Source: Dehalococcoidia bacterium
GTDB lineage: Bacteria > Chloroflexota > Dehalococcoidia > SM23-28-2 > HRBIN24
Direction of reading: 5' to 3'
DNA: 64,000 nucleotides
NCBI GenBank assembly: GCA_032249735.1
Contig: JAVVHA010000013.1
Coordinates: forward strand, 1-64,000
Shown: piece after piece, positions 2,147-58,849 of the stretch
Position numbering within the stretch: position 1 is the first letter of the stretch
Layout: the number at the start of each line of letters is the position of its first letter
Notes under the pieces: generated by a model
Databases searched by the model: none
Told to the model about the DNA's origin: nothing
The model's input: the letters and a program-made list of their open reading frames with translations, nothing else
Made by a program: the position numbers and the translations under genes

Positions 2147-2267
2147 CCACCGCCTCAGGCGGTGGGGCAAACCCTCTTCCTGAGGTGGCAGCGGCGCTGG
2201 TGCCTCATCCCCGGGGCAGATCCCCTCTTGAGGTTCCTCCCTGGTAAGCTAGGTGCTGAGCAGGGAT
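2147..2267 (+). promoter_or_regulatory. Possible structured 5' leader of pncB
   Basis: The ~120 bases before pncB contain a perfect 8-bp hairpin (CCACCGCC, 2147-2154; loop TCA; GGCGGTGG, 2158-2165). A second, bulged stem-loop follows around 2181-2207 (GAGG..GGCA / TGCC.TC) with an inner AGC/GCT pair, and then a CCCCGGGG block. I could not match it to a named riboswitch, and GC-rich DNA makes chance hairpins common. It is a candidate leader only. Confidence 0.3.
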
Positions 2268-3629
2268 ATGGAGGAGATGGGCTTAGCCCTGGCCACCGAC
2301 CTCTATGAGCTGACCATGGCCCAGAGCTACTGGGAGCATGGCATGCACGGTCAAGCCGTCTTTAGCCTCTTCGTCCGAACCCTCCCCCAGGGGCGGGGCT
2401 ATTTGGTGGCCGCTGGGCTGGAGGACGTGCTGCGCTACCTGGAGGGCCTACGCTTCACCGCCTCGGACCTGCAGTACCTGGAGTCCACGGGTATCTTCTC
2501 ACCTCCCTTCTTGGAGTACCTGGCGGGCCTGCGGTTCACGGGCGAGGTATGGGCGGTGACGGAAGGAAGCCTGGTCTTCGCCAACGAGCCCATCTTGGAG
2601 GTGAAGGCGCCCATCATCGAGGCCCAGCTGGCGGAGACTTACATCATAAACCAGGTGCACCTGCAGACGGTTATCGCCACCAAGGCTGCCCGTTGCGTGT
2701 GGGCGGCCAAGGGGCGGGTGCTGGTGGACTTCGCCTTCCGCCGCACCCACGGCTTGGAAGCCGGCCTCAAGGTGGCCCGCTGTTGCTATCTGGTGGGGTT
2801 CGCCGCCACTAGCAACGTGCTGGCAGGGAAGGTGTATGGCATCCCTGTGGCTGGCACCATGGCCCATTCCTATGTCATGGCCTTCCCGTCGGAGCTGGAG
2901 GCCTTCCAGGCCTTCGCCCGCTCCTTTCCAGAGCGTTCCGTCCTCCTCATCGATACCTACGACACCCTACAAGGGGCGCGGATAGCGGCCCTGGTAGGGC
3001 AGGAGATGGCGCAGCGCGGCCACCGCCTGCGTGGGGTGCGCCTGGACTCCGGCGACCTCCTCTCCCTCAGCCGGGAGGTGCGCAAGATCCTCGACGAGGC
3101 AGGGCTGACGGAGGCCCAGATCTTTGCCAGCGGCGGCCTGGACGAGTGGGAGATAGAAGCGCTGGTGCGGGGAGGGGCGCCCATCGATGCCTTCGGAATA
3201 GGGACACGTATGGGGGTATCCGCTGATGCCCCCTGGTTGGACATGGCCTACAAGCTGGTGGAGTATGAGGGGCGGCCAGTCCTCAAGCTGAGCCAGGGCA
3301 AGGCCACCCTCCCCGGGGCCAAGCAGGTCTTCCGCTTCTACGACGGGAAGGGCGCCATGGCCCGCGACGTGCTGGCCCTGCGCGGTGAGCAGATGCCAGG
3401 GGGGCGTCCCCTGCTGCGCCAGGTCATGAAGGAGGGGCGTATACTGGGCCCTCTCCCCACCCTGCAGGAGCTGCGACGCCACTTCCACGAAGAGTTCGCC
3501 AGGCTACCTGAGCCCTACAAGGACCTGCACTCCCCCGCCAAGTACACCGTGGAGGTGAGCCCTGGCATCGCCTCCTTGCAACAGCAGTTGGCCATCTCCC
3601 CTCGGGGGGCTGGCCCCTCAGCTCGGTAA
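2268..3629 (+). CDS. pncB: Nicotinate phosphoribosyltransferase
   Basis: Converts nicotinate and PRPP to nicotinate mononucleotide in the NAD salvage (Preiss-Handler) pathway. The protein opens with the family signature 'LALATDLYELTMAQSYW', and continues with 'DFAFRRTHGLEAGLK' (phosphate and active-site segment), 'GIPVAGTMAHSYVMAF' carrying the catalytic-histidine region, 'VRLDSGDL' and 'FASGGLDEWEIEAL'. About 453 residues, normal for the family. The start is uncertain. I use the ATG at 2268 with a weak AGCAGGG upstream; a GTG at 2253 and an ATG at 2277 are also in frame, and the conserved part begins just after 2277. It is transcribed away from the thiolase operon across a 184-base intergenic region that may contain a structured leader. 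Confidence 0.95.
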   Translation: MEEMGLALATDLYELTMAQSYWEHGMHGQAVFSLFVRTLPQGRGYLVAAGLEDVLRYLEGLRFTASDLQYLESTGIFSPPFLEYLAGLRFTGEVWAVTEGSLVFANEPILEVKAPIIEAQLAETYIINQVHLQTVIATKAARCVWAAKGRVLVDFAFRRTHGLEAGLKVARCCYLVGFAATSNVLAGKVYGIPVAGTMAHSYVMAFPSELEAFQAFARSFPERSVLLIDTYDTLQGARIAALVGQEMAQRGHRLRGVRLDSGDLLSLSREVRKILDEAGLTEAQIFASGGLDEWEIEALVRGGAPIDAFGIGTRMGVSADAPWLDMAYKLVEYEGRPVLKLSQGKATLPGAKQVFRFYDGKGAMARDVLALRGEQMPGGRPLLRQVMKEGRILGPLPTLQELRRHFHEEFARLPEPYKDLHSPAKYTVEVSPGIASLQQQLAISPRGAGPSAR

Positions 3630-6755: not shown

Positions 6756-7881
6756 GGCCGTGCCACCGTGGGTAGCCCGTTACCAAGATATCCTCCCCTA
6801 GCCTCCTGATGGACACCTCTCGTAAGGGGACGGCATCGGCCATGCGCATGGCGCCACGTCCAGCCACGGGCGTGGGGGCCATGGCTGCCCCCACCACCAT
6901 GGGGGCGATGATGGCGTGCACCTTGTCCACCAACCTCTCATCGAAGAAGCTGCCCAGCAGGATGCCCCCTCCTTCCACCAACAGGCTCAGGACACCGCGG
7001 CGGCCCAAGGCGACCAGGAGAGCGTGCAGGTCCACCCTCCCATCCTTGGCCGGCAAGACCAGGACCTCCGCCCCAGCCTCTATCAACGCCTCCCGCCAGG
7101 CGGGGGAGGAGGCCTCGGTGGTGGCTACCAGGGTGGGGGCGCCAGGCCCCAAGACCCGGGCCGTGGGGGGGGTGCGGCCACGGCTGTCCACCACCACCCG
7201 GAGGGGCTGGCGACGCGCTAGCCTCTCCGCGGGGCGAGCCGTCAGCTGGGGATCGTCCACCAAGACCGTCTGAGAACCTACGGCGATGGCGTCCACCTGC
7301 GTGCGCAGACGGTGGGCCCAGGCCCGCGCCTTGGAACCGCTCACCCAGCGGGAATCGCCGCTGGCCGCCCCAATACGCCCATCCAGGCTACACGCGAACT
7401 TGGCGATGACGAAGGGCAGGCCCGTGCGGCGGTGCTTGACGTAGGCCTCCAACAGCCTCTCCGCCTCCTCCCTTCCCTCCCCGACCACCACCTCAATGCC
7501 TGCCTGCTGCAGGGCAGCCACACCTCGGCCGTTCACCTGGGGGTCGGGGTCCAGCATGGCCACATGCACTCGGGCGATGCCCGCCCGCACGATGGCCTCT
7601 GTGCACGGCGGGGTGCGACCGTAATGGGCGCAGGGCTCCAAGGTCACATACAGCTCCCCTCCGCGAGCGGCCTCCCCTGCCTTAGACAAGGCCACCACCT
7701 CCGCATGGGGGCCAGGCGGGGGTCGGGTGTGGCCCCGGGCCACTACCCGCCCTTTTTTCACCACCACTGCCCCCACCCAGGGATTGGGCGATGTCCGCCC
7801 CAGGGCCCTGCGCCCCTCCCTTAGGGCCAGTAGCATATAGGGAACCATAGCAAGAACATCATATCGCCTCCGTGTTAACAT
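6748..7881 (-). CDS. ribD: Riboflavin biosynthesis bifunctional deaminase/reductase RibD
   Basis: Bifunctional enzyme for the second and third steps of riboflavin synthesis. The N-terminal deaminase domain shows the zinc site 'GPHAEVVAL' (His59, Glu61) and 'PCAHYGRTPPC' (Cys84, Cys93). The C-terminal reductase domain begins near 'FVIAKFACSLDGRIGAASGDSRWVSG' and has 'LLVEGGGILLGSFF'. 377 residues, normal length. The first in-frame start is the ATG at 7881, but it lacks a visible SD; ATG 7848 or 7836 would give an N-terminus closer to other RibD proteins. It is divergent from the MBL hydrolase gene only about 20 bases away. No other rib genes are visible in this window. Confidence 0.95.
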   Translation of the reverse strand: MLTRRRYDVLAMVPYMLLALREGRRALGRTSPNPWVGAVVVKKGRVVARGHTRPPPGPHAEVVALSKAGEAARGGELYVTLEPCAHYGRTPPCTEAIVRAGIARVHVAMLDPDPQVNGRGVAALQQAGIEVVVGEGREEAERLLEAYVKHRRTGLPFVIAKFACSLDGRIGAASGDSRWVSGSKARAWAHRLRTQVDAIAVGSQTVLVDDPQLTARPAERLARRQPLRVVVDSRGRTPPTARVLGPGAPTLVATTEASSPAWREALIEAGAEVLVLPAKDGRVDLHALLVALGRRGVLSLLVEGGGILLGSFFDERLVDKVHAIIAPMVVGAAMAPTPVAGRGAMRMADAVPLREVSIRRLGEDILVTGYPRWHGHG

Positions 7882-7900
7882 GGGCTAAGGGAGGGTGACC

Positions 7901-8581
7901 ATGTCCCAGGAGCCACAGGTGAGCGAGCTCATGGTGCGGGGGCTGGTGGTGGGCCTCTTCGCCGAGAACTGCTGGATCATCGGCAACCGCCGCACCGGCG
8001 AGGCCATCTGCATCGACCCCGGCGACCAGCCCGACGATATCCTGCACCTGGCGCGGGACATGGGGGTGCGCATCAAACTCATCGTCAACTCCCATGGGCA
8101 CCTGGACCATATCCTGGGGGTGCGGGCAGTGCAGGCGGCCACCGGTGCCAAGTTCCTCCTCCACCAAGGCGACTTAGACATCGCCCGCAAAGCAGCGGCC
8201 TCTGCCGCCCTCTGGCTGGGCCGCACCGTTGAGCCCCCGCCCGATCCCGATGACTTCATAGAGGACGGCGACGAGGTGGAGGTGGCGGGCGTAAAGCTGA
8301 AGGTCATCCACACCCCTGGCCACACCCCCGGCTCCTGCTCCTTCTATAGCGAGGGCATGCTCTTCAGCGGCGACACCCTCTTCCGCGGCTCCATCGGCCG
8401 CACCGACCTCCCCGGCGGCGATTACCAGCAGGAGATGGACAGCATCATCCATAAGCTCCTCAAGCTGCCCGACGATACCATCGTCCTCCCTGGCCATATG
8501 GAGGAGACGCGCATCGGCATCGAAAAGGAGACCAACCCCTTCATCCTTATGGAGCTGCGCCGTCGCCAGCGGAGGCCCTAG
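7901..8581 (+). CDS. MBL-fold metallo-hydrolase (glyoxalase II-like)
   Basis: Metallo-beta-lactamase fold hydrolase of 226 residues. The metal-ligand motif 'NSHGHLDHILG' is present, followed by 'IHTPGHTPGSCSFY', 'LFSGDTLFRGSIGRTDLPGGD' and 'VLPGHMEETRIG'. These are the signatures of the hydroxyacylglutathione-hydrolase-like (YcbL/GloB-II) group, so the substrate is likely a thioester, but this cannot be fixed from sequence. The ATG at 7901 has GGGAGG upstream at proper spacing and is preferred over the GTG at 7895. Its end overlaps the dcd gene tail-to-tail by four bases. Confidence 0.92.
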   Translation: MSQEPQVSELMVRGLVVGLFAENCWIIGNRRTGEAICIDPGDQPDDILHLARDMGVRIKLIVNSHGHLDHILGVRAVQAATGAKFLLHQGDLDIARKAAASAALWLGRTVEPPPDPDDFIEDGDEVEVAGVKLKVIHTPGHTPGSCSFYSEGMLFSGDTLFRGSIGRTDLPGGDYQQEMDSIIHKLLKLPDDTIVLPGHMEETRIGIEKETNPFILMELRRRQRRP

Positions 8582-9147
8582 GTCTGGAAGTCCTGGAAGG
8601 CCCGCGAGGGGGTGGGCTCGTCCTGCCCCTGGTACTTGCTCTTTAGGCCAGGGGAACCATAGGGCCTCTCCACAGGCGTAGAGAGGCGATAAAAGGAGAT
8701 CTGGGCGATCTTCATGCCATAATAAAGGGCTATGGGCATCTGCGACTGGTTGGAGAGCTCCAGCGTCAGCTTCCCCGAGAAGCCTGGGTCCACATAGCCA
8801 GCGGTGGCATGCACCAGGAGACCCAGCCGCCCCAGGGAGGACTTGCCGTCCACCCTGGCTACTATGTCATCGGGCAGGGTGATGTGTTCGATGGTGCCCG
8901 CCAACACGAAGCTCCCCGGCTGGACGATGAAGGGCTCCTCAGGCTCGATGACCACCCGCTCCGTCAGGTCGGAGACGTCCTCCCGCACGTCCACGTAGGG
9001 GCGCCGCGTCACCCGGAAAATACGGAACACCCTATCCAAGTGGAGGTCGATGCTGGCCGGCTGGATGGAGTCCTCCCACAGAGGCTCCACCCGGATCCGC
9101 CCCAGGGCCAGCTCCTCCTTTATGGAGCGGTCGGAGAGGACGGACAT
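8578..9147 (-). CDS. dcd: dCTP deaminase
   Basis: Deaminates dCTP to dUTP (or directly to dUMP in the bifunctional type) for thymidylate synthesis. The core motifs are 'SIQPASIDLHLD', 'GKSSLGRLGLLVHATAGYVDPGFSGKLTLEL', with the catalytic Glu in 'LTLEL', and 'KIAQISFYRL'. I use the ATG at 9147, which gives the standard family N-terminus 'MSVLSDRSIKEELALGRIRV'. An upstream ATG at 9189 would add 14 residues. About 189 residues. The C-terminus carries a short tail after 'YGSPGLKSKYQGQDEPTPSRAF', typical of the bacterial trimeric dCTP deaminase with its nucleotide-closing C-terminal segment. Confidence 0.95.
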   Translation of the reverse strand: MSVLSDRSIKEELALGRIRVEPLWEDSIQPASIDLHLDRVFRIFRVTRRPYVDVREDVSDLTERVVIEPEEPFIVQPGSFVLAGTIEHITLPDDIVARVDGKSSLGRLGLLVHATAGYVDPGFSGKLTLELSNQSQMPIALYYGMKIAQISFYRLSTPVERPYGSPGLKSKYQGQDEPTPSRAFQDFQT

Positions 9148-9273
9148 CACCACAAAGATGACCCGCTCAGCCCTTTGTGAGGAAGACATGCCCCAGCCCC
9201 ACTTTCCCGGATCTTTTCCACACCGCTGGTGCCAAGTCCAGGTTACAGGAGGCGCGGGGCCACCGCCTATCTC

Positions 9274-10095
9274 TCACCCTATCTCGTAGACCACCGTCAC
9301 CGTGACCACTATGTCCAGGGTGCCTATGGCCACGTCTGCGCGGGCCTCTGCAGGGGCAGCGAAGGGCACGGCCACTCCCCCCTCCGTGATGGCCACAGGA
9401 CGGCCCAAGGAGACGCCCGCCCTCTCGGCCAGCTGCTGGGCCCGAGCGCGAGCGTCGGCCATCGCCAGCCGCCGCGCCTCCTCTTCATGGGGCTGAGGAT
9501 TGGCCACGCTCAGGTGCAGGCCCTGGACCCTGAGAAGGTCGCCCACCTCTTGGGCAGCGGCCTGCAGCAACGCCCCCAGGCGCTGCAGATCCCGCACCTT
9601 TACATCGATGGAGATCTCCAGGACATAGGCCGCCGCTGGGTAGATGGATGGCGCTGGCATCGTCTCCGGCGCGGAAGGTGAGCCCGGGGCAGTTCCGGGC
9701 GCAGGTGAGGGAGGCATCGGCGCGGGCAGGGGGACGGGCCTTTGCGAGAAGAGATTGAAGGCGATGGTGCGCACATCTTCCTCCTTCACCCCTTGGGCCC
9801 GCAGCCGGGAGAGGAGGCGCCCTTGAGCATCCATCCCTTGTTGCACCACCTGGGCCACTGCGTCCCCTTCTACGTGTACGGTCATGGCCACCACGGCCAT
9901 GTCCGGACGCACCGATACCTTCCCCACCCCTGTCACCGTGATGCCCTGAAGGCCGATACTGCCCCCTTGGGCCACAGCTAGGGCCCCACCCATCACCTGG
10001 GCCCCTGGCGGGATGGCGTCCCTGCTCTCGGCCCCCTGGCATCCCACCACCACCAGGCCCAGGAGGGCCACGGCCAGCAGCGCCGATATCTTCAT
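9274..10095 (-). CDS. SIMPL-domain (DUF541) lipoprotein
   Basis: 273 residues. An N-terminal type II signal peptide (LLGLVVVGC, Cys19) is followed by the SIMPL domain, recognisable by 'ITVTGVGKVSVRPDMAVVAMTVHVEGDAVAQVV', 'DVRTIAFNLFSQ' and the late 'ARAQQLAERAGVSLGRPVAITEGG'. A Pro/Ala-rich insertion of ~35 residues (about 125-160) interrupts the domain and is unusual. SIMPL proteins are periplasmic or surface proteins linked to stress resistance, of unknown molecular function. The start has GGAGGGGAG upstream, and a TATAAT lies 30-odd bases before it on the minus strand. Confidence 0.88.
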   Translation of the reverse strand: MKISALLAVALLGLVVVGCQGAESRDAIPPGAQVMGGALAVAQGGSIGLQGITVTGVGKVSVRPDMAVVAMTVHVEGDAVAQVVQQGMDAQGRLLSRLRAQGVKEEDVRTIAFNLFSQRPVPLPAPMPPSPAPGTAPGSPSAPETMPAPSIYPAAAYVLEISIDVKVRDLQRLGALLQAAAQEVGDLLRVQGLHLSVANPQPHEEEARRLAMADARARAQQLAERAGVSLGRPVAITEGGVAVPFAAPAEARADVAIGTLDIVVTVTVVYEIG

Positions 10096-10119
10096 CGGTC
10101 TCCCCTCCCTCGAAAAGAC

Positions 10120-10137
10120 GTGCTACGATTATAGCAC
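10120..10137 (-). promoter_or_regulatory. -10 element with overlapping 6-bp inverted repeat before the SIMPL gene
   Basis: On the minus strand a perfect TATAAT occupies 10133-10128. It is flanked by a GTGCTA...TAGCAC inverted repeat (arms 10120-10125 and 10132-10137, six bases apart) that overlaps the -10 box. No convincing -35 is seen. It could be an operator or chance symmetry. Confidence 0.35.
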
Positions 10138-10214
10138 CTCCCTCCCCGCTGGCCTTACCTAATAGCCCCTATAGGGCATAGGTGTCATAATGGGGTGAGG
10201 GGGCTCGCGAGCCG

Positions 10215-10964
10215 ATGGAACATCAGGAGACTGAACCTAGCCCTCCCCAGATGCTGCCTTCCCCACCGCGCTGGGGGCCTCCGCAGACGCCGGCCGAGAG
10301 CTACGCCTCGACGCCCCAAGCGCCCGAGGCGCAGAGGGGGCTTTGGAGCCGCCTCCTGGTGGAGGCCTTGGAGACGGCCCTTTTGGCCGCCCTCATCTTT
10401 TTGGCCGTGCGCTTCTCTTTGCAGAATTTCCGGGTGGAGGGCATCAGCATGGCCCCCAGCCTGGAGGACGGCGAATACCTCATCATCAACCGGCTGGCCT
10501 ATCTGAAGTTGGACCTGCGCATCTTCGACTGGCTCCCCTTCTTCCATGCCCGGGAGGGCGACGTGGTCTACCTCTTCGGCGCGCCCAAGAGGGGCGACGT
10601 GGTCGTGTTCCGCTCACCTATGCCTCCTCACCGCTACTTCATAAAGCGCATCATCGGCATCCCTGGGGACACGGTGCAGATCGATGGTGTCAGTGGGCGG
10701 GTGTATGTCAACGGCCGGCCCCTGGAGGAGCCATACGTACAGGGCAAGACCCGCTGCAGCTTCAGTGGCAACGGCTGTGGCCCGTGGGTCATACCTCCCG
10801 GGCACTACTTCGTCCTGGGCGACAACCGGGAGAACAGCACCGACTCCCGCTACTTCGGTCTCGTGGCGGAAAGCCACATCGTGGGCAAGGCCTTCATCAC
10901 CTACTGGCCACCACGCGACTTTGGGCTTGCTCCTAACCATTCCATCTCCTTCGCCGAACAGTGA
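10215..10964 (+). CDS. lepB: Signal peptidase I
   Basis: Cleaves signal peptides of exported proteins at the outer face of the cytoplasmic membrane. 249 residues with one predicted membrane segment (about 46-66). The catalytic Ser is in 'VEGISMAPSLEDGEYL' (Ser78) and the general-base Lys in 'FIKRIIGIPGDTV' (Lys144). The C-terminal box 'VLGDNRENSTDSRYFG' is also intact. A Pro-rich cytoplasmic N-terminal extension of ~40 residues precedes the membrane segment and is longer than in most bacterial homologues. The PPOX gene begins one base after its stop, so the two are co-transcribed. 'CATAAT' just upstream could be a -10. Confidence 0.96.
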   Translation: MEHQETEPSPPQMLPSPPRWGPPQTPAESYASTPQAPEAQRGLWSRLLVEALETALLAALIFLAVRFSLQNFRVEGISMAPSLEDGEYLIINRLAYLKLDLRIFDWLPFFHAREGDVVYLFGAPKRGDVVVFRSPMPPHRYFIKRIIGIPGDTVQIDGVSGRVYVNGRPLEEPYVQGKTRCSFSGNGCGPWVIPPGHYFVLGDNRENSTDSRYFGLVAESHIVGKAFITYWPPRDFGLAPNHSISFAEQ

Positions 10965-51628: not shown

Positions 51629-52935
51629 AGGGGGAGGGCCCGCAAGCGCTCCATGAGGGCGGGGGCCCGCCCCAAAACATAGCCCATGGCGGCCAGCGTG
51701 ACCAACGTGGCCGCCACCAGCACATAACGGGCCCCCACGAGATCGGCCATGCCACCCAGGGCTAGAGCTGGCAAAAGGGATACGGCATCGGCCACAGCGC
51801 TCTGGGTGGCAAAGACGCGGGCCTGGGCCTCCAGCGGTGCCTCCCGGTTTAGGATGGTCCGGCAGGCCACCAGCACCATGGTGCCCGCCAGCCCCACGGG
51901 CGCCGCCAGCAGGATGGTGAGGGTGATAACGGAGGAGACCCCAAGCTTCCTCTCCACAAAACCGATGCCCAGGTCCAGGTTCTCCACGATGATGCCCCTT
52001 AGCTGGACCACTAGCCCCAGAGCCAAAAGGGCCGCCACCAGCAAGCCAAACCCCACTACCACGGCCCTCTCTATCCTGATAAGGCGCCCCAGCATGGGCG
52101 TGAGGAGAAGGCCCAGCCCCGCCCCCACCGCCGCCGGCGCCATGACGAATACCACATTCTCAGTGGCAATGCCTAAGACCTCCTTGACATAGTGGGGAGC
52201 CAGCACTACCACCACCTTGAGGAGGGTCATGGCCCCCGTCATATATATCATGGCCAGGAAGGCAGCACGGCTCCTGCCCAGCACCCGCCAACCCAGGAGG
52301 AGGGCCTGCCACAGGCCTGGCCCCTCCTCCCCCACCATCTCCCTCCGCCCCAGGGGCCCCAGGCGAGCCGCCACCACTGCCACCCAGGCATAGAGGAGCA
52401 TCACCACTGCCATCACCGCCCGTTCCTTAAGCAGCTTAAAAAGGAGGGGGGCCACCATCACCGCCCCCACCACCTGCCCCACGACAGCCGCCATGACGAA
52501 CAGGGCATTGGCCCGCGCCAGCCACGATGGCTCCACTACCCGCGGCAGGCCCGCTGACTCGGCCGGCCCCACCAACTGCCCCACCAGGGCGAAGAGGAAC
52601 GCCAGCAGGAAGATGGTGGGAAGATCACCTGTGTTGGGGATCATAAGGGCCACGATGACCGCCCTGGCCACCGCCCCTCCCACCAGCGACCACCGCAGGG
52701 GCAAAGCATCGGCCAGGGCCCCGCCCAAGACCCCGAACACGATGGAGGGACCGGTAAGGGTCACCACCATTAGGGCGGTGAAGAAACTGGAGCCCGTCCT
52801 CTCTACCACCACCAGGAGAAGGGTGTAGAGGAGGGCGTTTTGCGCCACTTGCCCCACAGCCCGCGCCTGTAAGAGGCGCATGAGAGGCAGATGGGACAGG
52901 ATGACCGCCCAATCGCGACGCCAGGCCCTAAGCAC
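51625..52935 (-). CDS. MFS transporter
   Basis: 436 residues with about 12 hydrophobic segments. It starts 'LRAWRRDWAVILSHLPLMRLLQARAVGQVAQNALLYTLLLVVVERTGSSFFTALMVVTLTGPSIVFGVLGGALADALPLRWSLVGG', containing the A-motif-like loop (GGALADALPLRW) of the enterobactin exporter/drug-efflux MFS group. Substrate unknown. Start GTG 52935 seven bases after the upstream permease gene stop, with GAGGTGAC just before; so the two transporters are probably co-transcribed. Confidence 0.9.
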   Translation of the reverse strand: MLRAWRRDWAVILSHLPLMRLLQARAVGQVAQNALLYTLLLVVVERTGSSFFTALMVVTLTGPSIVFGVLGGALADALPLRWSLVGGAVARAVIVALMIPNTGDLPTIFLLAFLFALVGQLVGPAESAGLPRVVEPSWLARANALFVMAAVVGQVVGAVMVAPLLFKLLKERAVMAVVMLLYAWVAVVAARLGPLGRREMVGEEGPGLWQALLLGWRVLGRSRAAFLAMIYMTGAMTLLKVVVVLAPHYVKEVLGIATENVVFVMAPAAVGAGLGLLLTPMLGRLIRIERAVVVGFGLLVAALLALGLVVQLRGIIVENLDLGIGFVERKLGVSSVITLTILLAAPVGLAGTMVLVACRTILNREAPLEAQARVFATQSAVADAVSLLPALALGGMADLVGARYVLVAATLVTLAAMGYVLGRAPALMERLRALPL

Positions 52936-52941
52936 GTCACC

Positions 52942-54324
52942 TCAAGCGACCCGGACCCTCAGGTCGAGAAGGGCCATGGCTAGGGCCCACGGCGGCAACG
53001 AGGCCCAAAACCCCACCTTGAGCCACTCCCAGATGTGTACCCTCCCCCCTCGCTTCTCCCACAGCCCCACGGCCACCACGTTGGCCGTGCTGCCGATGAC
53101 CGTCAGATTGCCCAATATGGTGGCCCCCAGCAACAGCCCCCACCACAGGGGCCGGGGGTCCACCCCTACCGATTCCAGGTCCTTCACTACCGGGATGAAG
53201 GTGGCCACCGCCAGCACGTTGTCCATGACGGAGCTTATAGCCCCGGCGGCTATGGAGACCAGGAACAAGAGGGCTGTGGGATCCTCCCGCGACCACTCCC
53301 TGATGCGCTCCGTCACCACGTCTACCGCCCCCGTGGCCTCCAGGGTGCCCACCGATGCGAACAGCAGGAGGAAGAAGGTGAGGGTCCACCACTCCACCCG
53401 CCGCTCCACTAACTCCCGAGCCTGCGGGCCCGCCAACAAAACACACACACCCCCAGCCACCAGGGCGATGGCTATCAGAAGGGTGTTCTTCTCCAGGCCT
53501 AACAGGTGCTCAAGAGGGGAGTGCACCACCAAAAGCCCCATGGTGGTGACCAACACCGCCCAAGGCACCCGCATCTCCGGGGCCCAAAGGTCAGGCGGGT
53601 CGGAGGCCGCCGCCGGCACCCGCCTCATGGCCTGCCTCATCTCCGCCAAGGGCTGGCGTAGAAGCCACATCATGAGCCCCACCACCAGCGCCAGGGCCAC
53701 CAACGCCAGGGGCGATGCCCAGGCCAAGAAGTCGATGAACCCCAGGCCAGACCGCAGGGCGATCATCACCCCCACGGGGTTGCCCACCACCGTGGCTGCG
53801 CTGCCGATATTGGTGGCGAACACCAGGGCCATGATGAAGGGCCAGGGCCGCACCTCCAGCCGATCGGTGATGCGGAACAGGGCAGCCAACATGAAGATGA
53901 TGGACGCCACCTCCCCTACCAAGGCGGCGGCAAGGAAGGCCGCCCCCATCAGGATGGCCAATAGGAGGCGAGGCCGCGGCCCCACCCAGTCCTCCAACAG
54001 GGCGATGATGCGGTCAAAGAACCTCCTCTCCTCCAGGAACCCCACCAACAGCATCATGCCGATGAGGAAGACGATGACGTCCAGTCCTGCCGATTCGATG
54101 AACCCCTCGATGGTCAACAGATCGGCGGCCAGGAGAACCCCTACCCCGATGAACACAAAGAGGAGCCTTCGCTCCCAGTAGAGGAGGGAGCCGACGATGG
54201 CCGCCCCAAACACCCCCAGAGAGATGAGCTGGTCGCCCCGCATCCCCAGCCCGAAGCCGGCCAACAGCCATAGGCCGAGGAGGAGAGGGTACCATGCCCA
54301 GCGGGCGCGCCATAAGGAGAGCAT
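52942..54324 (-). CDS. SLC13/ArsB/NhaD-type ion permease
   Basis: 460 residues with 11-12 hydrophobic segments, ion transporter superfamily. 'SLGVFGAAIVGSLLYWERRLLFVFIGVGVLLAADLLTIEGFIESAGLDVIVFLIGMMLLVGFLEERRFFDRI', 'ATNIGSAATVVGNPVGVMIA' and 'SSVMDNVLAVATFIPVV...GATILGNLTVIGSTANVVAV' are the paired re-entrant-loop motifs (S/T-N-x-G-x-A..GNP). A Na+/H+ antiporter, arsenite or dicarboxylate role cannot be separated by eye. The ATG at 54324 with AGGGAG six bases upstream is the start; longer extensions overlap the divergent PBP gene. Confidence 0.88.
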   Translation of the reverse strand: MLSLWRARWAWYPLLLGLWLLAGFGLGMRGDQLISLGVFGAAIVGSLLYWERRLLFVFIGVGVLLAADLLTIEGFIESAGLDVIVFLIGMMLLVGFLEERRFFDRIIALLEDWVGPRPRLLLAILMGAAFLAAALVGEVASIIFMLAALFRITDRLEVRPWPFIMALVFATNIGSAATVVGNPVGVMIALRSGLGFIDFLAWASPLALVALALVVGLMMWLLRQPLAEMRQAMRRVPAAASDPPDLWAPEMRVPWAVLVTTMGLLVVHSPLEHLLGLEKNTLLIAIALVAGGVCVLLAGPQARELVERRVEWWTLTFFLLLFASVGTLEATGAVDVVTERIREWSREDPTALLFLVSIAAGAISSVMDNVLAVATFIPVVKDLESVGVDPRPLWWGLLLGATILGNLTVIGSTANVVAVGLWEKRGGRVHIWEWLKVGFWASLPPWALAMALLDLRVRVA

Positions 54325-56890: not shown

Positions 56891-57484
56891 TCAGGGGATA
56901 GTTCGGCTAAGCCAAAGGATGCGGGCGCTCTCCTCCAGTACGCTAGTGTAGAGAAGGGCCTGCCACAAGTCGTGACCGCGGGCGTAGGAACCGTGGCCCC
57001 ACCAAAGGGCAATAGGCGCTGATGCTAGGGCGGAGGCCAGGGCCTCCGCTCCTGCTACCACCGGCACGGCCTCCCCCAGATGGTGCCTGCCTTCCAGGTC
57101 CTGAGGAGTCAGGGGCACATCCCTTAGGGACAGGGCCACAGCGTGGACGGGGTGGGCGTGCACTATGGCCCAGGCATCGGCGGCGGCGTAGATGGCCTCA
57201 TGGAGGTGGGTGTCCATGGAGGGCTCACCCGTCGCCTCTTGCCCCCGCACCACCACCAAATCATCCTCTCCTAGGCGGCCCAGCATGGCCCCATGCCTGG
57301 TGATGACCAAGGTGCCATCGGGGAGACGCACGCTCATATTGCCACCGTGGGAGGAGACGAGCCCCGCCTCCCATAGGAGGCGACCTACCTCCCGGAACTC
57401 GCGCACCAGCTCAGCGGGGACCCCCATGACGCCCGGGAAGGGAAGCTGCCGGCCCCATCTATAATAACGCAAGGCGAGGGCCAT
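56891..57484 (-). CDS. Class II aldolase/adducin family protein
   Basis: 197 residues. The zinc and phosphate motifs of L-fuculose-phosphate-type aldolases are present: 'GLVSSHGGNMSVRLPDGTLVITRHGAMLG', 'MDTHLHEAIYAA' (catalytic Glu) and 'AIVHAHPVHAVAL' (metal His). The length is right for an aldolase; the C-terminal metal ligand 'GHGSYARGHDLWQAL' is also visible. Cleaves a phosphorylated ketose or acts as a dehydratase; substrate unknown. Start ATG 57484 overlaps the stop of the small gene before it (TGATG); ATG 57427 is another possibility. Last gene of a tightly coupled minus-strand cluster. Confidence 0.9.
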   Translation of the reverse strand: MALALRYYRWGRQLPFPGVMGVPAELVREFREVGRLLWEAGLVSSHGGNMSVRLPDGTLVITRHGAMLGRLGEDDLVVVRGQEATGEPSMDTHLHEAIYAAADAWAIVHAHPVHAVALSLRDVPLTPQDLEGRHHLGEAVPVVAGAEALASALASAPIALWWGHGSYARGHDLWQALLYTSVLEESARILWLSRTIP

Positions 57485-57675
57485 CACCCCACCACCCTCA
57501 GGACCAGCTGGGCGATGACCGCCCCCAGAACGACGAAGATGAGCCCATTGACCCGCGTCTTCACCTCCCGCACGTCCTCCTCCAGGCGTTGTAGGCGGGC
57601 CTCCAAGGGGAGGGCCCCATAGGCCCGCCGTCTCCTGTGGCCCAGCGCCCTTATGGCCTCCTCAAGCCTGCCCAC
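57484..57675 (-). CDS. Small coiled-coil protein with C-terminal membrane helix (XhlA-like)
   Basis: 63 residues. A basic head and a short coiled coil ('EARLQRLEEDVREVKTRVN') precede a membrane helix ('GLIFVVLGAVIAQLVLRVV'). This layout matches XhlA-type proteins of phage and prophage lysis modules; the sequence is too short to prove the relation. Start ATG 57675 lies inside the previous gene's end (14-base overlap). The stop TGA overlaps the aldolase start. Confidence 0.7.
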   Translation of the reverse strand: MGRLEEAIRALGHRRRRAYGALPLEARLQRLEEDVREVKTRVNGLIFVVLGAVIAQLVLRVVG

Positions 57676-57985
57676 CTTGCGGCCCCTCCAGCAGCTCCCC
57701 CATGCTCTCTATAAGGTTGGCCAGGTTGTCGGCCAGGTCGCGACGGGCCTTGGGCGAGAGCTTGTATCGGGCAGCCACCGCCTTCACCAGCATGTCCACC
57801 CCCTTGGCGATGAGGGCTAGGTCCTGGGGGTGTTCCTGTAGGGCCCGCTTCAGCCGCACCCGCAGGACGGCGATCTCCTCGTCCAGGCCCTCCACCTCCT
57901 GGGCACGAGCCAGCTCCAGCCTTTCGGCCTCGGTGAGGGCCTCGGCATAGAAGCTGCGTAGGCGGTTGCGTCCTCGCCTCCTCAC
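57662..57985 (-). CDS. Small helical protein of unknown function (phage-associated type)
   Basis: 107 residues, 'MRRRGRNRLRSFYAEALTEAERLELARAQEVEGLDEEIAVLRVRLKRALQEHPQD' then 'LVKAVAARYKLSPKARRDLADNLANLIESMGELLEG'. It recalls the helical proteins beginning 'GNRNALKHGFY..LT..E' in Chloroflexota and phages, sometimes called terminase-small-like, but I cannot place it with certainty. Start GTG 57985 with AGGAGG seven bases upstream; the GTG overlaps the preceding stop (GTGA). Confidence 0.7.
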   Translation of the reverse strand: MRRRGRNRLRSFYAEALTEAERLELARAQEVEGLDEEIAVLRVRLKRALQEHPQDLALIAKGVDMLVKAVAARYKLSPKARRDLADNLANLIESMGELLEGPQGGQA

Positions 57986-58137
57986 CCTTCGTCCTCCTCT
58001 TCCCCCAGCAAGGCGAGCATGGCCGCTAGGGACTCCGGGGGGAGGCGGGAGGCCACCTCCACCACCCCCAGGGCCAGGCATAGGGCCACCACGTCCCATC
58101 TGCCCGTCTCCACTGCCACCGTCATCAACGAGGCCAT
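57982..58137 (-). CDS. Small protein of unknown function (51 aa)
   Basis: 51 residues, MASLMTVAVETGRWDVVALC at the start and a strongly acidic end (LLGEEEDEG). It has a hydrophobic helix that is probably too short and interrupted for a membrane anchor. The ATG at 58137 has a strong SD, GGAGGTGA, seven bases upstream, and its stop overlaps the next start, so it is probably translated. Confidence 0.65.
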   Translation of the reverse strand: MASLMTVAVETGRWDVVALCLALGVVEVASRLPPESLAAMLALLGEEEDEG

Positions 58138-58140
58138 GGC

Positions 58141-58443
58141 TTATTCACCTCCCAAGCTCACGGTGCGCCGCAGGATGAGGAGGGAGATGGCGACCATGCC
58201 TACCAGGGCCAGCCCACGCACCCAGCCCCAGAGGGGGCCACCCTGGCCCCACCCATGCCCACCCGCCGTCAGAAGAAGGACGCTCTCGGCCAGCGGGCCC
58301 AGGCACACTAGGAGGAGGGCACCTGCCGCCACCCGATAAGGTGGTCGCCTCCTCTCACCCAGGAGGTAGAGGAGGAAGTATAGGCTGTTGAAGGCGGCCG
58401 AGAGGCCGATGACCGTCTCCAGGGCTGCTGGCCAGGGCGCCAT
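58141..58443 (-). CDS. Small membrane protein with three membrane segments
   Basis: 100 residues from ATG 58443. Three hydrophobic segments (about 7-27, 37-57, 74-92), the size and topology of a phage holin, though I see no sequence motif. SD AGGTGGGGGAG precedes the ATG; a GTG at 58452 is an alternative. First gene of the small-gene cluster. Confidence 0.65.
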   Translation of the reverse strand: MAPWPAALETVIGLSAAFNSLYFLLYLLGERRRPPYRVAAGALLLVCLGPLAESVLLLTAGGHGWGQGGPLWGWVRGLALVGMVAISLLILRRTVSLGGE

Positions 58444-58504: not shown

Positions 58505-58849
58505 CTAGCCCTCGGGGCCCAAGTGTCGGCCCCCTAGAACGTGCATGTGCAGGTGGTATATGAGCTGCCCCCCGTGCTCCCGCACGTTGATGGCCAGCCG
58601 GTAGCCCTTCTCGGCGATCCCTTCCTGCTGAGCCACCTTCTTGGCCACCATGAACATGCGCGCCAGCAGGGGGCCGTGCTCCTCCCCTATCTCTTGGGCG
58701 CTGGGGATGTGCTCCTTGGGGATGACCATGAAGTGCACAGGCGCCCGGGGATGGATATCGCGGATGGCGAACACCAGGTCGTCCTCGTAAAGCTTCTGGG
58801 TGGGCACCTCGCCCCTGACCATCCTGCAGAAGAGGCATTCCTGGGTCAT
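58505..58849 (-). CDS. HIT-family (histidine triad) hydrolase
   Basis: 114 residues: 'ECLFCRMVRGEVPTQKLYEDDLVFAIRDIHPRAPVHFMVIPKEHIPS' and the triad 'QLIYHLHMHVLGGRHLG' (H-x-H-x-H). HinT-type nucleotide phosphoramidase; the CxxC at the N-terminus ('CLFC') is common in this group. Start ATG 58849. A terminator hairpin separates it from the acyl-CoA dehydrogenase upstream. Confidence 0.95.
   Translation of the reverse strand: MTQECLFCRMVRGEVPTQKLYEDDLVFAIRDIHPRAPVHFMVIPKEHIPSAQEIGEEHGPLLARMFMVAKKVAQQEGIAEKGYRLAINVREHGGQLIYHLHMHVLGGRHLGPEG

Follow-up and report, generated by a model that had tools for sequence, protein, structure and literature searches.

The four small genes described here (ORF1–4) probably form one segment of a GTA-like particle system of Dehalococcoidia that derives from a phage and is inherited vertically, and for which we infer particle formation, packaging of host DNA and delivery. 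They lie on the minus strand of the window, i.e., the whole stretch of 64,000 nucleotides that was analyzed (contig C13): ORF1 (58141..58443, 100 aa), the first gene of the cassette, and ORF2 (57982..58137, 51 aa) have ATG starts, and ORF3 (57662..57985, 107 aa) and ORF4 (57484..57675, 63 aa) GTG starts. The arrangement given in a preliminary description of this DNA was confirmed throughout: ORF1 and ORF2 are separated by a 3-base gap, ORF2 and ORF3 overlap by 4 bases and ORF3 and ORF4 by 14 bases, and ORF4 meets a class II aldolase gene (56891..57487; Pfam PF00596, E 3e-32) at GTGATG, that is, by a TGATG overlap. A HIT-family gene is located 61 bp upstream of ORF1. Hydropathy profiles contain three membrane segments in ORF1, as the three-helix topology proposed earlier implied, one marginal segment in ORF2, none in the all-helical ORF3 and one at the C-terminus of ORF4, where it forms the anchor of a coiled-coil protein.

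Searched singly against Pfam and NCBIfam, ORF1–4 had no significant match. They are genuine genes, beyond chance: ORF3 matches are found in 55 of the 100 genomes searched (own genome included), usually as one copy, and ORF1, ORF2 and ORF4 adjoin it in most of the relatives' loci. The dN/dS values against a genome of the same genus are 0.21, 0.06, 0.09 and 0.19 for ORF1 to ORF4 (dS near saturation), which places ORF2 and ORF3 among the most constrained genes. When 13 profiles of the particle set were run over the window, ORF1–4 alone were matched; the earlier statement that no other phage gene is near is thus true of the window but not of the whole genome, which carries TerL, portal and capsid genes elsewhere. 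Another part of the window (52001–54000) displays a swing in composition (GC skew −0.15, AT skew +0.31) over a large membrane-transporter-like ORF.

The best reading of ORF3 is a relative of small terminases that lacks a matched N-terminal DNA-binding part. Within its family, 8 of 39 members match phrog_1889 (best E 5e-8) and 3 of 39 match phrog_509 (best E 4e-6), both terminase small subunits (E ≤ 0.1), whereas ORF3 of the window by itself gives a weak small-terminase match (E 0.0038) and leaves the first 100 of the 276 phrog_1889 model positions unmatched; some members of the family have a longer N-terminus of the type GAPLGNKNARRHGFYS. The likeness to phage terminase small subunits (PHROGs 1889, 509, and 370) resides in the central helices and in the place before TerL, and the difference in the length of 107 aa and in the unmatched N-terminal part. 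The AlphaFold model of ORF3 (pLDDT 75.7) had scattered best fold matches (portal helices, ribosomal protein S15, and others; Z at most 7.4), and the fold search returned no convincing terminase match and no viral match better than E 0.87. A packaging motor devoid of sequence recognition is what a GTA would be expected to need.

ORF4 resembles, through weak family matches, the Rhodobacter capsulatus GTA protein Rcc01685. At E ≤ 0.5, 19 of 29 members of the ORF4 family match NF048001, the Rcc01685 family (best E 7e-4), and none of 10 segment-shuffled ORF4 controls does; ORF4 of the window scores 11.3–11.9 bits, far below the curated cut-off of 50 bits. According to the available text of PMC7296036, the RcGTA head locus encodes Rcc01685, a protein with no assigned function that is predicted to form a helix; oblate capsids are still made when it is knocked out. 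In three genomes in which ORF3 is on another contig (G006, G015, and G024; loci L107, L108, and L111), ORF4 stays with TerL. XhlA, to which ORF4 had been likened, is absent from the Pfam matches of the 29 family members (E ≤ 0.5), and we rejected this assignment in favor of the weak resemblance to NF048001. The holin-like identity suggested for ORF1 was abandoned as well, none of the 28 members of its family matching a holin PHROG. Profile searches recognized no family for ORF1, whose relatives occupy the same cassette position in other loci, or for ORF2, which has a conserved WxxAALCLxLGVxEAxxxLP core.

The profiles of ORF1, ORF2 and ORF4 match the same loci as ORF3, in the same order, across Dehalococcoidia families, so that the conservation of the four-gene order, which had been named as a check, was verified. 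In these relatives, genes were called with a home-made program whose output includes shadow ORFs; we used only genes with profile or family support, and host flanks were named by eye. In many other families, both of the order and beyond it, the gene after ORF4 encodes a TerL of about 415–470 aa, which starts with LRPYQ and contains the motif RQ(A/G)GKNELSA. TerL is followed by an HTH protein with a CPLPxC motif, a portal, a scaffold-like coiled coil, an HK97-type capsid, an SU10-type adaptor, p643, and a 71-aa protein. This place directly before TerL, together with the family matches of ORF3, supports both the terminase-small-like character and the domesticated phage-like nature that had been proposed. 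The aldolase, by contrast, adjoins the 3′ end of the cassette only in the window's family (own genome and L003, L004, and L005, among 31 loci searched), and was therefore dropped as a member of the conserved unit; in L006, it comes after another gene, and the gene downstream of the cassette resembles glycerate kinase, as judged by eye.

The set forms one block in G056 and G094. In the former (L033), the twelve genes are undivided and extend from about 2.9 to 11.0 kb, i.e., over about 8 kb, with host-like genes on both flanks; L035 (G094) and L106 (G065) are similar blocks with insertions, and ORF4 was undetected in L106. The L106 block ends with a separate 71-aa holin-like gene (phrog_297, E 6e-4). 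In this block, the TerL and HTH genes are separated by an inserted, oppositely oriented ORF (2257–3558) for a secreted, repeat-like protein of 433 aa, and the tail-hub gene (7765–10728) encodes 987 aa, with an extra stretch in the first half relative to p643. Decayed remains of the set occur in G037, G072 and G016. In the complete genomes of G072 and G037 (L039 and L040; 1.36 and 1.52 Mb), the small and large terminases are kept, whereas the capsid is missing and the portal is either missing or broken; in both, the system has apparently decayed, though TerL is still open.

The window's own genome contains one TerL, one portal, one capsid gene and one ORF3 match, distributed over three loci: the ORF1–4 cassette on contig C13 (locus A), TerL, the HTH protein and the portal on C20 (locus B), and the scaffold-like protein, the capsid protein (MCP), p137, the adaptor, p643 and p71 on C3 (locus C). 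The capsid matches phrog_212 (E 1.7e-75) and PF05065 (E 3e-14), the portal PF05133 (E 8e-20), the adaptor PF24175 (E 9e-10), and TerL phrog_2 (E 5e-9) and PF17289 (E 4e-4, just under its cut-off), while profile searches returned no useful family match for p137, p643, and p71. The TerL sequence contains MARQAGKNEL and LMLEMDEAQ, and GLDVGG, VAVDATGLG and GGDDF in its nuclease half, which we take to be the Walker A-like and Walker B-like motifs and the nuclease aspartates, respectively. The genes of the set outside the cassette are intact in this genome, G001, and G002, and are interrupted by contig ends in G003. The set is under purifying selection, with dN/dS of 0.05–0.26 between the own genome and G001 (dS near saturation) and of 0.10–0.53 between G002 and G003, p71 being highest. 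The encapsulin or gas-vesicle assembly that had been envisaged is replaced by a DNA-packaging, tail-bearing gene set located elsewhere in the genome.

The tail is represented by p643, which we predict to be a tail hub with an inserted lectin-like propeller. Its predicted structure (pLDDT 78, nine sequences) has a Foldseek match to the contractile-system hub 7aef_q (E 4e-15), and VIA comparisons gave Z 24.6 with 9gtr_q (rmsd 4.5 over 319 residues) and Z 23.9 with phage Mu gp44 (rmsd 3.8 over 303 residues). Residues 42–327 correspond to a six-bladed lectin propeller (1ofz, a fucose-lectin; Z 23.1, rmsd 2.9 over 256). The modeled p643 resembles phage Mu gp44, T4 gp27 and VgrG-type hubs in the hub parts at both ends, and AAL-type lectins in the six-bladed propeller, but differs from them in uniting both folds in one 643-aa protein and in the lack of a detected tail tube gene. 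In the own set, we recognized no lysis gene, tail tube, or tape measure.

In profile searches of the 100 genomes, TerL was found in 63, the portal in 60 and the capsid in 50; ORF3, TerL, portal and MCP are all present in 36 genomes and all missing in 30. ORF3 and TerL co-occur strongly (both in 52 genomes, ORF3 only in 3, TerL only in 11, neither in 34; Fisher p 1.2e-13), and TerL and portal are found together in 56 genomes, TerL alone in 7 and portal alone in 4. These and the box counts below exclude a duplicate locus (L008), ORF3 matches that did not reach 1e-12, which are antisense shadows, and leading genes preceded by fewer than 250 bases of sequence. The genes that stay adjacent differ among genomes, the window's family splitting ORF4 from TerL.

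Within the order, the set largely follows the host tree. Over 11 genomes, the splits shared with the rpoB tree number 8 of 8 for TerL, 6 of 8 for the portal and ORF3, 5 of 8 for MCP and 3 of 8 for ORF4, and splits at odds with rpoB reach supports of 0.95 (MCP) and 0.93 (ORF4). The families with several members (f1, f4, f6, f11, and f21) are mostly clades in the gene trees. Mantel correlations with rpoB were 0.48 for TerL, 0.60 for the portal, 0.21 for MCP (p 0.048), 0.41 for ORF3 and 0.56 for ORF4 over 28–35 chosen genomes; the 35 genomes used for Mantel comparisons, trees, and box counts were picked for having most of the set, and profile matches under 75% coverage were dropped from the former. 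Because these correlations are moderate, we claim vertical descent within the order only, older horizontal movement or uneven rates being likely. The chromosomal context points in the same direction: among 27 loci compared, a HIT gene lies at most 228 bp upstream of ORF1 in 12 of 19 loci of the order (and 3.6 kb upstream in one more) and in none of the 8 loci outside it. A search of the own genome for integrases (PF00589) and serine recombinases (PF07508) found none on C13 or C20; the nearest is on C3, separated from the capsid gene by about 23 kb, and the remaining ones are on other contigs. No replication genes accompany the set in the flanks, as judged by eye.

Beyond the 100 genomes, a capsid scan of GTDB genomes found 159 relatives, the best 80 of which are nearly all labeled Dehalococcoidia or Chloroflexi/Chloroflexota and include Tepidiforma flava YIM 72310, a strain with MCP and TerL on a single stretch. 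Of 301 genomes sampled across the phylum, 34 had the capsid, 15 of these belonging to other classes. Relatives were also present in IMG/VR, where the best 80 of 293 (L118–L197) have a median length of 6.3 kb and bear the same gene families, with this capsid mostly accompanied by scaffold and adaptor genes; many of these 80 "viral" stretches are probably host loci. In one of them (L119, 4936–7295), a serine-recombinase-like ORF abuts the leftover half of a portal gene, as though an element had inserted there.

In the own genome, one and the same predicted LexA-type palindrome precedes lexA and the operons of TerL and the capsid. The clue was a similar odd start peptide, EHMFY, in several leading genes, and it drew attention to a common palindrome, GAACN4GTTC. 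The own genome has 12 exact sites, not more than the 13 of a control pattern, but 5 of the 12 occupy promoter positions: one each before lexA, an operon identified by eye as ImuB-like/DnaE2-like, and the TerL operon (8 bases before the presumed TerL start), and two before the capsid operon. The other seven comprise five sites within genes, one within a questionable ORF, and one across the start of a radA-like gene. The perfect GAACATATGTTC, the same box as that of the TerL operon, precedes the ImuB-like gene, itself followed by a PHP-domain polymerase-like ORF (L409; C25:14008), a probable SOS mutasome operon. The GAACTCACGTTC site across the radA-like start (L399; C2:116785), a 12-mer that occurs once each in G001, G002, and G003, may be another LexA site.

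In the relatives, one exact site lies just upstream of lexA at 27 of 30 loci, and none at the other three; G003 has two full-length lexA genes (C1:133419 and C98:2808), each with an exact box close by. For 26 of the 103 leading genes in the particle set, an exact box is present at most 250 bases upstream; the same loci have one in 12 of 2540 other segments and in 1 of 96 downstream segments (Fisher p 1.6e-29). At least one such box was found at particle leading genes in 19 of the 35 genomes, and 29 of 80 named loci have one near a particle gene; none was near particle genes at the Tepidiforma loci L225 and L230 or at L238, L265, and L277. The box precedes ORF1 in seven genomes (G010, G013, G023, G040, G052, G066, and G074), and no exact box precedes the cassette in the own genome (G000), G001, G002, G003, and G007; the one-mismatch site nearest to the window's cassette is at 58769, within the HIT gene. 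Because the cassette of the window's family is apart from TerL and has no LexA box, its genes are probably co-expressed with the HIT gene upstream.

This separation raises the question of whether, in the window's family, ORF1–4 were uncoupled from the particle and took on a new membrane-linked job, with the HIT gene and the aldolase as operon partners. The distance to TerL, the lack of a LexA box in families f1 and f5, the HIT gene 61 bp upstream, and the overlapping aldolase downstream would all agree with such a change; yet the own genome, G001, and G002 have kept the other genes of the set intact, ORF3 is the sole match of its kind in the own genome, and ORF2 and ORF3 have kept very low dN/dS, so that we give this explanation a small chance of being right. 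We consider it distinctly unlikely that the set makes a domesticated particle that has ceased to move DNA between cells and is retained for some other purpose, for instance killing, storage, or the formation of an encapsulin-like shell. Precedents exist in tailocins and encapsulins, both of phage origin, and the MCP of the own genome also weakly matches the encapsulin model PF19307 (E 0.0024). To our knowledge, however, neither a tailocin nor an encapsulin needs a terminase or a portal, whereas TerL and portal were kept together in 56 genomes and the TerL of the own genome retains what we take to be its Walker A-like and Walker B-like motifs and nuclease aspartates.

That a prophage or phage-satellite lineage entered these genomes repeatedly and is now decaying appears quite improbable to us. 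Such a history would account for the patchy presence across the 100 genomes, for the IMG/VR relatives, for the decayed remains in G037, G072, and G016, and for the deep conflicts between trees. It is at odds with a set that is mostly single copy, has the same chromosomal address across families of the order, and is spread over three loci in which every gene is open and constrained and no integrase is close by. The nearest named phages are distant (identities of no more than 42% for the capsid and 30% for TerL), and the best 80 of the 293 IMG/VR stretches are short and bear the same gene families. The preliminary description had also raised a phage lysis module, with ORF1 as the holin and ORF4 as its XhlA-like partner. 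The topology, a 100-aa three-helix protein and a coiled coil with a C-terminal anchor, is the kind expected, but neither family has holin or XhlA support, the ORF4 family matches NF048001 instead, and L106 has its own separate holin-like gene; we regard this reading as very improbable.

The GTA-like particle system that we favor can be compared with known ones. RcGTA and its alphaproteobacterial relatives (Rhodobacter and Caulobacter), as presented in the available portions of PMC7296036, PMC9632790, and PMC10883770, also have phage-derived head, packaging and tail genes, several loci and host-like inheritance, and RcGTA has a small helical protein by the head genes, Rcc01685, comparable to the ORF4 family. 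They differ in that RcGTA belongs to another phylum and the Dehalococcoidia set has no recognized tail tube or tape measure. According to the accessible part of PMC9632790, the main locus of the Caulobacter GTA has 21 genes and is driven by GafYZ and repressed by RogA, whereas in the Dehalococcoidia set LexA-type boxes are directly before operons and the G056 block has 12 genes in about 8 kb. SOS-induced prophages similarly have LexA sites before structural operons, but the Dehalococcoidia set is split over the chromosome, with no integrase near its loci. With regard to the features that PMC12946183, in its available part, attributes to GTAs, we found phage-derived head and packaging genes, dispersed loci, host inheritance within the order (deeper agreement being moderate), and purifying selection. 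A counterpoint is that 30 of the 100 genomes lack all four markers, and capsid retention can have reasons other than DNA transfer.

A more specific proposal, which we hold with about as much doubt as belief, is that of an ancient Dehalococcoidia GTA, very compact in its undivided form (12 genes in about 8 kb) and LexA-wired together with lexA and an error-prone polymerase operon, by which damage would cause part of the population to lyse and pieces of chromosome to be passed to neighbors that the lectin-bearing hub recognizes, ORF1–4 being the membrane-linked packaging segment. In the mechanism envisaged for the favored reading, DNA damage would remove LexA and thereby turn on the terminase-portal and capsid-hub operons, and the capsid protein would assemble on scaffold and portal. 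ORF3, as a TerS without a matched recognition domain, and TerL would load the heads with DNA of the host instead of a phage genome, and the adaptor and the hub would close them. ORF4, as a membrane-anchored coiled coil, and ORF1 would probably keep assembly or packaging at the membrane. The lectin-like propeller of the hub may bind surface sugars of a neighbor, and the delivered DNA would be used for recombination and repair. By analogy, a LexA-wired system in Dehalococcoidia fits the role of the Caulobacter GTA, which, as the available text of PMC9632790 reports, aids survival after DNA damage by providing repair templates.

These predictions concern a largely uncultured group, the Dehalococcoidia. 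Our literature search, mostly judged from titles and the openings of abstracts, found no paper on a GTA of Chloroflexota, and formally recognized GTAs are, in the available part of PMC12946183, those of a few lineages, mainly Alphaproteobacteria and Brachyspira. If our reading is true, a phage would have been tamed independently once more to serve DNA exchange, here in a system spread across Dehalococcoidia and with capsid relatives in other Chloroflexota, and some of the "viral" contigs in public collections would actually be host genes. The idea that GTAs serve DNA repair would also become directly testable, because the damage regulator itself appears to be the switch.
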